NCBI RefSeq assembly: GCF_000293785.1
Contig: NZ_AKZI01000043.1
Location: 1-54,848 of the forward strand
Source of the DNA: Rhodovulum sp. PH10
Lineage (GTDB): Bacteria; Pseudomonadota; Alphaproteobacteria; Rhizobiales; Xanthobacteraceae
Direction: 5' to 3'
Length of the DNA stretch: 54,848 bases
Each line of letters begins with the position of its first letter. The stretch's first letter is position 1. Position numbers and translations under genes: made by a program. Shown here piece after piece: positions 12,158 to 16,824 of the stretch. Under the pieces are notes generated by a model. The model was not told the origin of the DNA. It searched no databases and saw only the letters and a program-made list of their open reading frames with translations.

Positions 12158-12745
12158 TTACGCCTGGACCGACATGCTGCCGGTCGGCGCGCTCGCGAGC
12201 GCGTTCTGCATGGTCTGCAACAGCGTGCGCAGGCTGCTCGCCATCTCGGACACCGAGATTTGGTCGTCGCCGTCGCTGTCGAGCGACGAGAGGATCGCGC
12301 TCGCATCGTCGCTGGTGCCGCCGTTCGACGTGGCGAACGAGTCGAGCTCGCTGCTCGAGATCGAACCGTCACCGTCGCTGTCGACCGCGGAGACCAGGCT
12401 CGAGGCCATGTCGTCGATCGACGGCGGCGGGGGCGGCGGCGCACCCCCGCCGATCGCCGACACGCCGGACGTTTCGGAGGCGCCGCTGCTCGTGCTCTCG
12501 GTGCCGCTGCCGCCCGATGCCTGCTGCATCGTCATCAAGAGCGCCATCATGTCGGAGGCGAGGCTGCCGCTTCCGCCGCTGCCGCGCGCCTGCCGCTCGC
12601 CGCCGTCGTCGTCGTCCGGCGGCGGGGGCGGCATGAAGGCGTCCGCGGCGCTGGTGCTCGACGAGCTGCTCGTGCTGCTCGACTGCAGAAGCTGCATCAG
12701 CGACCAGACGCTCGACAGGTCGCTCGAACCGACACTGGAGACCAT
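12158..12745 (-). CDS. EF-hand domain protein with low-complexity N-terminal half
   Basis: A 195-aa protein with two calcium-binding loops, DSDGDGSISSSE at residues 122-133 and DSDGDDQISVSE at 156-167; all the 1, 3, 5 and 12 position ligands are acidic in loop 1, and loop 2 is intact. The first 110 residues are low complexity: poly-Ser (22-31), PPPPPDDDD (39-47) and a second poly-Pro run (103-108). No signal peptide is seen. Function is unknown; a calcium sensor or buffer is the simple reading. The ATG has GGGGGA six bases upstream. The frame stays open upstream into the broken toxin gene, so automatic callers may give a false 348-aa fusion. Confidence 0.82.
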   Translation of the reverse strand: MVSSVGSSDLSSVWSLMQLLQSSSTSSSSSTSAADAFMPPPPPDDDDGGERQARGSGGSGSLASDMMALLMTMQQASGGSGTESTSSGASETSGVSAIGGGAPPPPPPSIDDMASSLVSAVDSDGDGSISSSELDSFATSNGGTSDDASAILSSLDSDGDDQISVSEMASSLRTLLQTMQNALASAPTGSMSVQA

Positions 12746-12890
12746 GTTTTCCCCCGAAAGAAAGCCACGCGCCGACGGTGCCGCCGTGACGGCGGCGCGG
12801 CGCGAGACGCCACGCTCCGGCGTCGTCTGTAGTACGGCCGAGGGTGGGGGAAACGGGCGCAGGAATGGCGGGGGAAGGCAGGGCAGACGT

Positions 12891-13204
12891 TCAGTCGGCG
12901 GCTCCCGGCATCGATGCCGGGTCGCGCGCCGCGTGCCGCACGGCGTGGATGACGATCGTGTCGGACGTGATCTCGTAAAGACGAGATAGGGAAAAGGCGC
13001 CGCCGTGAGCCGGCGGATGGCCGGATCGTCGGTCCGGCTTCCGATCCGGGGATGGCGCGCCACGAGGCCGATCACGGCGCGAAGGCGTGCTTTGACCCGC
13101 TTCGTGCCCTGCGGCGAATGGTGATCGATGTGTGCGAGGGCCGCTTCGAGATCGGCGAGTGCGGGGCGGGTGTAGCGAACCCTCAGAGGCCGTGTCGTCG
13201 CCAC
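12891..13204 (-). pseudogene. RelE/ParE-family toxin, frameshifted
   Basis: The N-terminal part (MATTRPLRVRYTRPALADLEAA and onward to FPYLVF, 76 residues) is a typical ParE/RelE plasmid-stabilisation toxin. The expected C-terminus, YEITSDTIVIHAVRHAARDP, is present in the next frame. Reading one extra T in the TTT at 12977-12979 restores an intact toxin of about 104 aa (quote shortened here to landmarks). So a one-base deletion, or a sequencing error, breaks the gene. Its start overlaps the end of the antitoxin gene by 22 bases, as expected for such operons. Confidence 0.75.
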
Positions 13205-13407
13205 AGCCGCTCGACCTCGTCGTCGGTCGCGAAGTCACCTGCCGCGGCCGCCTGCTTCGAGCGCTCGACCGGCGCCTTTTCATCCTCGGAAAGCACGACC
13301 GCCTCGTCGTCGCCGGAGAAGGCGAGCACGATCCGGGCAATGTCGTCCTGCGCGTCGGGCGGCAGGGTGCGGGCGACGGCGAGAGCTCGATCCAACAGCT
13401 CGGTCAT
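13183..13407 (-). CDS. Antitoxin of a ParE/RelE-type module
   Basis: A 74-aa acidic protein (MTELLDRALAVARTLPPDAQ at the start, ending EVERLWRRHGL). Small size, a helix that could dimerise at the N-terminus, and its position directly upstream of and overlapping the toxin gene identify it as the antitoxin that would bind the toxin and repress the operon. The start overlaps the stop of the upstream hic-like remnant as ATGA. Since the partner toxin is frameshifted, the antitoxin may be an orphan. Confidence 0.8.
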   Translation of the reverse strand: MTELLDRALAVARTLPPDAQDDIARIVLAFSGDDEAVVLSEDEKAPVERSKQAAAAGDFATDDEVERLWRRHGL

Positions 13408-13642: not shown

Positions 13643-14774
13643 TCACTCCACGTCCTCGATCTCGGCCGGGCCGCCGCCGAACGCCTTTTGCGCCAGCGTC
13701 GCCTCCATGAACGGGTCGAGATCGCCGTCCAGCACGCCGCCGGTGTCGGAGGTCTGCACGCCGGTGCGCAGATCCTTCACCATCTGGTACGGCTGCAGCA
13801 CGTAGGACCGGATCTGGTGGCCCCAGCCGATATCGGTCTTGGCCTCGAACTCGGCGGTGGCGGCGGCTTCGCGCTTCTTCAGCTCGATCTCGTAGAGGCG
13901 GGCGCGCAGCATGTTCCAGGCGGTGGCGCGGTTCTTGTGCTGCGAGCGCTCCGCCTGGCACACCACCGCGACGCCGCTCGGGATGTGGGTCAGCCGCACC
14001 GCCGATTCGGTCTTGTTGACGTGCTGGCCGCCGGCGCCGCCCGACCGCATGGTGTCGGTGCGCACGTCCGACTCCTTGATGTCGATGACGATGCGGTCGT
14101 CGACCACCGGATAGACGTCGACGCTGGCGAACGAGGTCTGGCGCCTGGCGTTCGAATCGAACGGCGAGATGCGCACCAGCCGGTGCACGCCGCGCTCGGT
14201 CTTCAGCCAGCCATAGGCGTTGTGGCCCTTGATCTGGATGGTGGCCGACTTGATGCCGGCCTCCTCGCCCTCGGTCTCTTCGAGATACTCGATCTTGTAG
14301 CCGTGCTGCTCGGCCCAGCGGGTGTACATCCGCAGGAGCATCGCGGCCCAGTCCTGGCTCTCGGTGCCGCCGGCGCCGGCATGCACCTCGAGGAAGGTGT
14401 CGTTGGGATCGGCCTCGCCGGAGAGCAGCGCCTCGAGCTGGCGACGGGCGACCTCGGCCTTCAGCTTGTCGAGCGAGGCTTCCGCCTCGGCGACCACCGA
14501 CGCGTCGTTCTCCGCCTCGCCGAGCTCGATCAGCCCGACATTGTCGTCGAGATCCTGCTCGATCCGGCCGATCGCCTCCAGGCTGTCCTCGAGGCCGGTG
14601 CGCTCCTGCATCAGGCGCTGGGCCTGCTGCGGGTCGTTCCACAGCTCGGGGTCCTCGGCGAGCTTGTTCAGCTCCGCCAGGCGTGCACGGGCCCGATCGA
14701 AGTCAAAGATGCCTCCTCAGCAGCCCGACCGACTGCTTGATCTCTTCGACGACCGACTGAGTTTCGGCGCGCAT
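13643..14774 (-). CDS. prfB: Peptide chain release factor 2, with +1 programmed frameshift
   Basis: RF2 (376 aa) terminates translation at UGA and UAA. The 23-codon first frame ([14 protein letters not shown] to RRHL) ends at an in-frame TGA at 14705-14703, and the rest ([19 protein letters not shown] onward) is in the +1 frame. The catalytic GGQ motif is in [14 protein letters not shown], and the tripeptide anticodon region corresponds to the RSQHKNR neighbourhood and domain 2. The join restores the normal family length. Autoregulation is visible in the DNA: low RF2 favours frameshifting and so more RF2. Confidence 0.95.
14702..14717 (-). promoter_or_regulatory. prfB programmed +1 frameshift site
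   Basis: On the minus strand the site reads AGGAGGCATCTTTGAC: an internal Shine-Dalgarno sequence (14717-14712), three bases, then the slippery CTT, the TGA stop and a following C. This matches the E. coli prfB arrangement exactly in order and spacing, so it is functional in autoregulation and not an assembly error. Confidence 0.93.
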
Positions 14775-15289
14775 GATTCCTCGACCCGTGATTCTGCGGG
14801 ATTTTCCGTCTCCCGACCGGCCGCATGTAGCGGCCCGCGCCGGCCGGCGCAACCATCGTGGCGCCGCAGCCGTGGAAAAGGCCACGGGGGGCTGCCGCCG
14901 CTGGGCGGGGCGCCGCAGAGCCGGCCCTCGCTCAGCAGCGCAGGACGGGAGAGGGTCCTTCGCCATTTAAAAGGAATCGCGGGTCATTTCATGGCCGGGT
15001 TCGGCGGTCGCCTTTGTTGCTACACAGCGTCCCGACCGTCGTCGTCTAAGTTAAAAGGGGTGAATTCGAACGTACACGACTTTTCGGAAATCGGCTATTT
15101 TTACGTGAGTGAAGCGCAGAACTTCGCTTCATGGCTGCTGATACGCCTATATTTTCCAAAAATTCATCGATCGGCGTCCGAAGAAGTGGGTTTTTTCCGC
15201 CGCGACATCAATCATATTGAGCCCAACGGACATCGCCGAACGGCACCGACCCGAATTCGTCCGACCGAACCGATACGAAAGAGTGAACA
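14775..15289. other. Gene-free stretch with an AT-rich core
   Basis: No gene is supported here. The half next to prfB is ordinary GC-rich DNA. From about 15040 to 15290 the sequence becomes clearly AT-richer (runs such as CTATTTTTA and ATATTTTCCAAAAATTC), unlike the rest of the window. An inverted repeat, TGAAGCG and CGCTTCA, lies at 15110-15131. The AT-rich block probably carries the promoter of the small gene at 15290, or marks foreign DNA. Confidence 0.5.
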
Positions 15290-15451
15290 ATGTCTCGCAA
15301 CGCTTCGATGAATCGCGACTCCCGTCCGCTCGGCGCGCGCGCCCGTCTGCAGAGCGCCATCGCCTCCTTCCGTGACACCATGCGGAACGTCCGCCGGCTG
15401 CAGGAAGAGGCCAAGCAGAAGTACCCCTATCTTCCTTCGCTCGACATGTGA
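15290..15451 (+). CDS. Small Arg-rich protein, paralogue 1 of 3
   Basis: A 53-aa cytoplasmic protein too short for most gene callers. It shares a C-terminal pattern with the next two small genes: a helix with TMRNVRRLQEEAKQKYP, then an aromatic residue plus Pro, and a final LDM. The N-terminal 20 residues are variable and polar. GAG lies seven to nine bases before the ATG. I do not recognise the family; it is not DUF1127. Conservation of the same C-terminus in three separately spaced genes shows that it is translated. The net positive charge suggests binding to RNA, DNA or an acidic protein. Confidence 0.7.
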   Translation: MSRNASMNRDSRPLGARARLQSAIASFRDTMRNVRRLQEEAKQKYPYLPSLDM

Positions 15452-15858
15452 GGCGACGGAGCTTCGATCGGCTTCGAGACCCTGCGGAAACACGTGTCCC
15501 GACCCGTCGCCCGTCGGCCCGAGCATTTCGGACCGGCGGGCGTCGGCGTTTTCGTCCCCTCTCTCGTCGGTTTGCGCTCCAGGCGGTGTCTTGCGCCCGC
15601 CGCCCGCCGCTCGTAGGCGAGGCCGACCGGCGCTCCGACCGGTCGAAGCGCCGGGATAGGGAGCCGAGCTCGTGACCTGGAGCCGGTGAGCCATGCATAT
15701 GATGCGGGGCTCGACGACGACGGTCTGGTCCGGCGGGGCAACAATCGGTGTCTCAGTTGGTCCCTAATGTCGTGAGCGCCCGCACCCATATCGAGCGCGA
15801 GGACGAAATATCGGTCCCCGGACGGCCTCGCCCCCGGGAGGACAGAAGGAGGAGAGCC
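15452..15858 (+). other. Gene-free spacer between small paralogues 1 and 2
   Basis: About 400 bases with no supported gene on either strand. It ends with the strong ribosome binding site AAGGAGGAGAG before the second small gene. The open frames crossing it have no family resemblance and no ribosome binding sites. Confidence 0.4.
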
Positions 15859-16020
15859 ATGGTTCGAGCCACGACACCGATCGGCGCCGACGATCGCCAC
15901 GCGCGGACCGGCATGCGCAGCGGTTTTGCCCGTGCCGTCGAGACGATGCGCGACATCGTCGGCGAGGTGGGACGGATGCGCCGCGAGGCGCGCCGGCGAT
16001 TTCCGCACCTCGATCTGTGA
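15859..16020 (+). CDS. Small Arg-rich protein, paralogue 2 of 3
   Basis: A 53-aa protein with the shared C-terminus: ETMRDIVGEVGRMRREARRR followed by FPHLDL. AGAAGGAGGAGAG gives it the best ribosome binding site in this pocket, about six bases before the ATG. Same length as paralogue 1, and the alignment is restricted to the last 25 residues. An intrinsic terminator follows 33 bases after the stop, so it is transcribed separately from paralogue 3. Confidence 0.75.
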   Translation: MVRATTPIGADDRHARTGMRSGFARAVETMRDIVGEVGRMRREARRRFPHLDL

Positions 16021-16053
16021 TCCGGTCGCCTGCCGGCGACACTTTTGCGGCGC

Positions 16054-16083
16054 AACGCCCCGGCCTCGGCCGGGGCGTTCTTC
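16054..16083 (+). terminator. Intrinsic terminator after small paralogue 2
   Basis: AACGCCCCGGCC pairs with GGCCGGGGCGTT around a very short loop, followed by CTTC. The stem is strong but the T tract is short. The rest of the spacer to 16331 has no gene; it includes an AT-rich imperfect palindrome, GTGATAATTATTCAC (16171-16185), a likely promoter or operator part for paralogue 3. Confidence 0.7.
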
Positions 16084-16331
16084 GTTGCGTGCAGTGCACC
16101 CGGCCCGCCCGCCGGATTTCAGCCGGGGGATGTTCTTTCCAGGCCGTGCGCGCGGCGCAATTTTCTTCTTGTGATAATTATTCACCAATGCCGATCCTGG
16201 CGCCCCGTTTTTCGCATGGCCCCGGAGGGTCATATTCGGTTCATCGAAACGTTCACCGGCATCCGCGCCGCGACACCGGTCACCGACCGGGTTTTCGACG
16301 GACGCTGCGGAGCCGAAGGGGAGTTGAAACA

Positions 16332-16490
16332 ATGATTCGCACCTTGACCGCCGATCTCGCGCACGACGTCACCGGCTCGACCGAGCCGAACATCCTGGTC
16401 CGCGTCGTCCACGGCGTCGCCGACACGATCCGTCAGGTCCGCCGGATGCGCGAGGATGCACGCCGCCGGTTCCCGGAGCTCGACATCTGA
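16332..16490 (+). CDS. Small Arg-rich protein, paralogue 3 of 3
   Basis: A 52-aa protein sharing the C-terminal ADTIRQVRRMREDARRRFPE and then LDI with paralogues 1 and 2. Its N-terminal half (MIRTLTADLAHDVTG) is unrelated to theirs. The start is preceded by GGGGAG about nine bases upstream. Own upstream AT-rich region and a strong terminator at 16753 suggest a single-gene transcript, possibly with a long 3' end. Function unknown. Confidence 0.72.
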   Translation: MIRTLTADLAHDVTGSTEPNILVRVVHGVADTIRQVRRMREDARRRFPELDI

Positions 16491-16752: not shown

Positions 16753-16780
16753 AGCCCCGGCCCGGCGGCCGGGGCTTTTT
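16753..16780 (+). terminator. Strong intrinsic terminator
   Basis: AGCCCCGGCC (16753-16762) and GGCCGGGGCT (16767-16776) form a perfect ten-base stem with a four-base loop, followed by TTTTT. It ends plus-strand transcription from the small-gene pocket, before the convergent TetR gene. Confidence 0.9.
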
Positions 16781-16824
16781 CGTGTCCGTGTCCGGTGGCC
16801 GATGAACGGCGCGGCCGTTCGGCG

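Follow-up and report, generated by a model that had tools for sequence, protein, structure and literature searches.

A small helical protein family beside prfB in an alphaproteobacterial genome and its predicted ties to the PhaR regulon

The window examined here is the whole stretch of 54,848 nucleotides from contig NZ_AKZI01000043.1 of Rhodovulum sp. PH10. It carries three tandem open reading frames, here called A, B and C, which lie on the plus strand beside the divergent prfB and encode 53, 53 and 52 residues, just as an initial annotation made from the sequence alone had described them (Table 1). All three begin with ATG, each start is preceded by a purine-rich stretch, and a hairpin with a T-run follows each gene within 300 bp 3' of the stop. 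The initial annotation had recognized the terminator of B, correctly, but had assigned one to that gene only. Upstream of A and C, a T-run is followed after 16–18 bp by CATATT, a layout that recurs at a single gene in each of four other species; aligned by eye, ATAT is found in all six of these A/C-type layouts and a clear T-run precedes it in four of the six. A sigma-70 consensus scan of the locus detected no promoter. An RNA family at the locus was considered and rejected: the three matches were weak, all under the gathering score, and the best of them, to sX6 (E 0.0055), is the terminator of gene B.

Table 1. Features of the locus in the window (promoter-like layouts are an inference from alignment; boxes are PhaR-type by pattern).
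Feature	Position	Strand	Basis or remark
Gene A, 53-aa family small protein	15290..15451	+	ORF list, whole-genome search, HMM
Gene B, 53-aa family small protein	15859..16020	+	ORF list, whole-genome search, HMM
Gene C, 52-aa family small protein, AlphaFold helix at residues 21-46	16332..16490	+	
prfB, main frame	13643..14611	-	divergent from genes A-C
Promoter-like T-run/CATATT layout upstream of gene A, common to gene C and relatives	15191..15218	+	alignment
Promoter-like T-run/CATATT layout upstream of gene C	16208..16236	+	alignment
Terminator-like hairpin 3' of gene A	15504..15546	+	
Terminator-like hairpin 3' of gene B	16054..16079	+	
Terminator-like hairpin downstream of gene C	16757..16783 (about)	+	
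PhaR-type box TGCGGCGCA (core of TTGCGGCGCAA), between B and C	16046..16054	.	-286 from C
PhaR-type box TGCAGTGCA, between B and C	16090..16098	.	-242 from C

Two further observations, both made by eye, concern the minus strand. Within prfB, CTTTGAC follows AGGAGG (14702–14717), which we take to be the usual programmed frameshift site of release factor 2 and ordinary. At 12158–13407, an antitoxin-like ORF (13183–13407) adjoins an ORF with a start resembling ParE/RelE-type toxins, which continues with no intervening stop codon as a serine-rich protein that contains EF-hand-like stretches; in the related genome G009, the serine-rich EF-hand-like protein stands alone.

With protein C as query, the whole genome (4.83 Mb in 272 contigs) yielded B (E 2.1e-4) and A (E 0.042), the next matches (E 0.66 and 1.0) both lying within long frames. 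Profile HMMs built without the window proteins, although in a retrospective test for which members had been gathered using seeds that included them, placed A, B and C at ranks 1–3 among 873 stop-to-stop segments of the window. This held for HMMs from 36 non-window members (B 2.2e-10, C 7.8e-7, A 8.2e-7; next segment 0.73), from nine members in other species of the window's genus (1.4e-11, 8.9e-11 and 3.2e-5; next 1.1) and from 27 members outside that genus (B 1.7e-6, A 1.6e-4, C just 0.062; next 0.65). Because the gap in E-value exceeds four orders of magnitude in two of the three versions, chance similarity is untenable, and it was ruled out by the genome search together with the HMM ranking. 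Identity among the three pairs reaches 38–54% over the last 24 codons as opposed to 19–38% elsewhere, which bears out the conserved C-terminus and variable N-terminus originally described. Judged from their sequences, A, B and C are paralogues of a real, unnamed alphaproteobacterial family with proteins of 38–59 residues.

The absence of a name, already remarked on by the initial annotation, holds in both Pfam and NCBIfam, where no model fits and single members at best are matched (lowest E 0.0084). PADLOC anti-phage defence models returned no families for A, B and C at E 1, and the literature searched contained no paper recognised as describing the family, nothing wider being claimed. Homologues in other genomes, which the initial annotation had made a test of its reading, were found in the window's genus, in Pseudolabrys and in a few other genera. 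With a profile of the window proteins and two relatives, members were identified in five of six genomes of the window's genus, the sixth being 58% complete; the window's genome and G009 have three copies each, and G053, G079 and G100 two each. Across the wider taxonomic family, matches at E 1e-3 came from 39 of the 391 genomes, of which 26 belong to Pseudolabrys (g34), five to the window's genus and eight to eight other genera, with 37 of the 47 rows read; the lack of a family gene in the other 352 genomes at the sensitivity used is weak evidence of absence, since 17–23 first-look candidates were scored per genome in the large searches. At the level of the order, four of 297 genomes match, namely the window's and three of a single genus, and the gene lies near typA in both non-window loci read. 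At the level of the class, two of 289 genomes match at E 1e-4, the window's and G691 (locus unread). Matches at L022 and L025–L028 in the genus search and at L041 in one of the large searches were judged to be chance, most lying inside long unrelated frames, and the weak matches L023, L024 and L029–L032 were left unread. Spread on plasmids was rejected, two queries finding no match in 72,556 records. The working set comprises 39 members (three of the window, nine others of its genus, 21 of Pseudolabrys and six others) and leaves aside G042 (no clear start), G034, G038 and G027; alignment A4 omits G318, G282, G244 and G459 of the 39.

In the comparison of synteny suggested at the outset, prfB neighbours the family genes in all five family-bearing genomes of the window's genus. 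In G009, G053, G079 and G100, the family genes lie between prfB and the PBP1A-family gene mrcA, on the strand opposite both, while mrcA does not adjoin them in the window. From 16825 on, the window departs from its relatives: the place of mrcA is occupied by a TetR-like regulator together with a RuBisCO-like protein, each label falling under the NCBIfam cut-offs.

Close Pseudolabrys pairs are under purifying selection. In four disjoint pairs (206 codons), changes at codon positions 1, 2 and 3 number 34, 27 and 94, and dN/dS is 0.11–0.22. Over 15 pairs, the ratio ranges from 0.11 to 0.96, with 0.32–0.96 in pairs of the window's genus; as one of these, G100a/G079a, is near 1 (0.96), selection is better shown for Pseudolabrys than for the window's genus. 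A ratio near 1 in relatives, which would have counted against the initial annotation, is absent from the close Pseudolabrys pairs but approached by that one pair of the window's genus.

The AlphaFold2 model of protein C, computed from an eight-row alignment (mean pLDDT 68.5, pTM 0.33), exhibits no helix of note in residues 1–20 (pLDDT near 50) and one helix in residues 21–46 (near 80). The helix typically ends in R/K-F/Y-P and is followed by a short tail, and the majority consensus of the C-terminal end is EA....R.A..RYPF. Pseudolabrys members have a helix with a hydrophobic first half, some means reaching up to 0.66 over 18 residues, and the most hydrophobic 18-residue stretches of the window proteins reach just -0.08, 0.08 and 0.27. 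By a shuffle test, the helix is amphipathic in A and C (p 0.010 and 0.047; B 0.13). Because just 10 of the 39 members have a hydrophobic moment that exceeds shuffled sequences at p < 0.05, amphipathy is no general proof; net charge is positive in 33 of the 39. A family member would have an N-terminal part under weak constraint and, after it, a single helix of amphipathic to hydrophobic character. The initial annotation had suggested a common partner and different specificities from the uneven conservation; such a partner is hypothetical, and the divergence of the N-termini may reflect weak constraint rather than specificity.

The repressor PhaR (AniA) has both DNA and PHB as ligands, and the prefix "bsr" in gene names used below denotes a small ORF. 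Within 400 bp upstream of the family genes (15,449 bp of DNA), the palindrome TGCRNYGCA occurs in 36 copies, distributed over 24 of the 39 genes. The reversed pattern yields no copies, five further shape-matched palindromes 1, 1, 0, 8 and 2, and spacer variants none (one base longer) and five (one base shorter). Density is 2.33 per kb upstream as opposed to 0.13 per kb in the remainder of the 30 loci, mostly coding (14 boxes in 107 kb), an 18-fold difference. By group, boxes precede 18 of the 21 Pseudolabrys genes, five of the 12 genes of the window's genus and one of the six others, with TATATTGCANTGCAACA as the majority consensus for the core and its flanks. Box-less genes comprise the remaining seven of the window's genus, G250, G300 (295 bp available), G128, G008, G014 and three members of another taxonomic family (G613, G494 and G459). 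Neither the boxes nor the small companion gene of other genera described below figured in the initial annotation.

The box equals the core of the PhaR consensus published for Bradyrhizobium: B. diazoefficiens PhaR binds TGCRNYGCASMA, as deduced from footprints and gel-shifted promoters (PMC6201568). According to the same study, loss of phaR raises the box-bearing bsr4236, bsr4726 and bsr5273 by factors of 11.2, 8.9 and 4.9, other boxed small ORFs such as bsr4431 and bsr4834 go down, and phasins with a box rise, two phasin genes being the most strongly derepressed rows in the table (PMC6201568). Within the literature searched, bsr4236 turned up in a single paper. A similar palindrome is given for S. 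meliloti PhaR in a second study, where two small site-bearing proteins of no assigned role increase in the absence of PhaR (PMC12542648). In 12 of the genomes studied here, a box lies within 350 bp of a phasin domain at 19 of 30 phasin loci (controls 0 and 1), including two of the three loci examined in the window's genome, and the pattern is for this reason taken as a PhaR box. phaR itself is present in 15 of 16 genomes tested (window genome E 5.6e-30); G190 has boxes and no phaR match. Conversely, G012 and G013 have phaR and no family match, which, together with the 352 genomes without the gene, argues that the family is not core PHB machinery.

The window contains six strict boxes. Two of them, spaced by 44 bp and with GC-rich arms, fall into the 311-bp stretch that separates B from C; none was found upstream of A or B. 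The extended pattern TTGCRNYGCAN{1,2}AA gives 25 among the matches listed for the window's genome as opposed to six for the reversed control; among these 25, two rows overlap, one lies at the family locus and three lie at phasin loci. The box pair and this match list make PhaR control of gene C possible as a prediction. Such control is not indicated for A and B, which may have left the regulon, given that the locus has boxes in the B–C gap alone. All four other near-complete species of the genus have one copy with TGCGCCGCA at -96 to -105 and YGCATYGCA 53–54 bp further up, and one other copy in each bears the A/C-type T-run/ATAT layout instead. Between prfB and the box-bearing copy, an ORF for a small hydrophobic protein is present in G009 (L009 5248–5490) and G053 (L010 5901–6149); a stretch resembling it is visible in G079, and none was seen in the window.

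In Pseudolabrys, 19 of the 21 family genes are preceded within 400 bp by a companion gene of about 70–80 aa with a product ending in GGKFTDEAEREIERRF or similar. The box lies at least 300 bp upstream in 16 of the 21, consistent with the start of the gene pair. G259 and G190, the only two without a companion, have boxes 86–110 bp from the family gene and are also the only Pseudolabrys genes with a box closer than 150 bp; the box therefore stays with the start of the transcription unit, far when the companion is present and near when it is missing. Companion and family gene are also paired in G014, G201 and G027, and no companion was found in the five genomes of the window's genus at E 1e-3. Aligned with the family by hhalign, the companion scores P 0.012 (probability 3.6%), and the two members scanned have no Pfam match. 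With PhaR boxes upstream of it in five of 13 loci read (among L043, L054, L056 and L144–L156), the companion may itself form an unnamed family of PhaR targets. In the g24 genomes G106 and G123 (L149 and L151), the companion is followed by an overlapping or abutting, faintly family-like 40-aa ORF (MITLI...HEAQRLRRLLPGPTEE) with no PhaR box, perhaps a diverged family member.

The best-supported reading of the DNA sites is that the Pseudolabrys members and one copy in the window's genus belong to the predicted PhaR regulon, which suggests work in the PHB-storing state. We infer that PhaR would bind these sites and that PHB accumulation would switch the family genes on together with the phasins, membership in the PhaR (AniA) regulon being the putative ancestral condition. 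From sequence and modelling, the family is read as one of PHB-responsive helical microproteins. To the fuller statement, that A, B and C are paralogues of an unnamed family, ancestrally in the PhaR regulon, of small helical accessory proteins of the PHB state, we give roughly even credence. As to molecular contact, our guess is that the conserved helix might dock either to the surface of the granule or to a protein partner common to the paralogues, with an accessory role in the carbon-storage state.

Alternatively, the products could be general stress or growth-phase proteins without a PHB role, in which case the Pseudolabrys boxes would be the companion's and the family gene a passenger. The distant boxes and the prevalence of the companion in Pseudolabrys would fit, as would the seven box-less genes of the window's genus and the differing promoter layout of A and C. 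This is nevertheless unlikely in view of the boxes close to the companion-less G259 and G190, and of the window's genus, which has no companion and yet keeps a box at one copy in all four other species.

If control by PhaR is accepted, the helix could lie flat on the PHB granule or the inner membrane and tune granule number or PhaR release. Boxes common to phasins and family, the strong derepression of two phasin genes in the Bradyrhizobium study (PMC6201568) and a hydrophobic or amphipathic helix with a basic end point in this direction, while the missing sequence relation to Phasin_2, the low hydrophobicity of the window proteins and the few significant moments point away from it, leaving the proposal tentative. 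PhaR might instead merely time the expression of DUF1127-like adaptors in the cytoplasm, whose conserved C-terminal helix would contact a sensor kinase or an enzyme and whose N-termini would be unconstrained. Size, positive charge, a single helix and redundant paralogues recall the three DUF1127 proteins of Agrobacterium; no DUF1127 match was obtained for 35 members at E 0.1, the partner is hypothetical, and the hydrophobic helix half of some Pseudolabrys members fits a purely soluble adaptor poorly. Such adaptors are likewise a doubtful proposition, and we rate the granule-surface helix and the adaptor about equally likely. A more specific version, which we find rather improbable, holds that the family comprises PhaR-controlled microproteins of the PHB granule or PHB state, unrelated to phasins, in which a common docking helix is combined with N-termini diverged for different clients or timing, some paralogues having moved to another promoter.

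Small proteins are difficult to detect, and assigning them a role is more difficult still. On the preferred reading of PHB-responsive microproteins, DNA sites link a family without a name to an established metabolic switch and thereby provide its first testable role, one that can be tested directly. Should its members act on granules, they would be, to our knowledge, the smallest accessory proteins of bacterial bioplastic storage. PhaR studies list small genes of no assigned role among the derepressed, which the family could begin to explain (PMC6201568; PMC12542648).

Among known systems, phasins of the Phasin_2 type (PF09361) have the same PhaR-type boxes upstream in the same genomes. They measure 100 aa or more, whereas family proteins have about 50 aa and one helix; a phasin homologue was rejected, since hhalign against 19 phasin domains gave a probability of 0.1%, and no Phasin_2 entry appears in the Pfam matches of 35 members at E 0.1. 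The DUF1127 small proteins, presumably PF06568, resemble the family in being about 50 aa long, often basic, alphaproteobacterial and present as several paralogues per genome. They differ in their conserved motif, and the Pfam model matched neither the 35 members at E 0.1 nor A, B and C at E 10. Three small DUF1127 proteins of Agrobacterium are reported to bind PhoR (PMC12501420), a partner not thereby implied for the family. Other proteins are likened to the family by their sites rather than by sequence: bsr4236, bsr4726 and bsr5273 of B. diazoefficiens, which are likewise proteins of no assigned role under PhaR boxes (PMC6201568), and SMc03998 and SMc02051 of S. meliloti, small proteins with a PhaR site that increase when PhaR is missing (PMC12542648).
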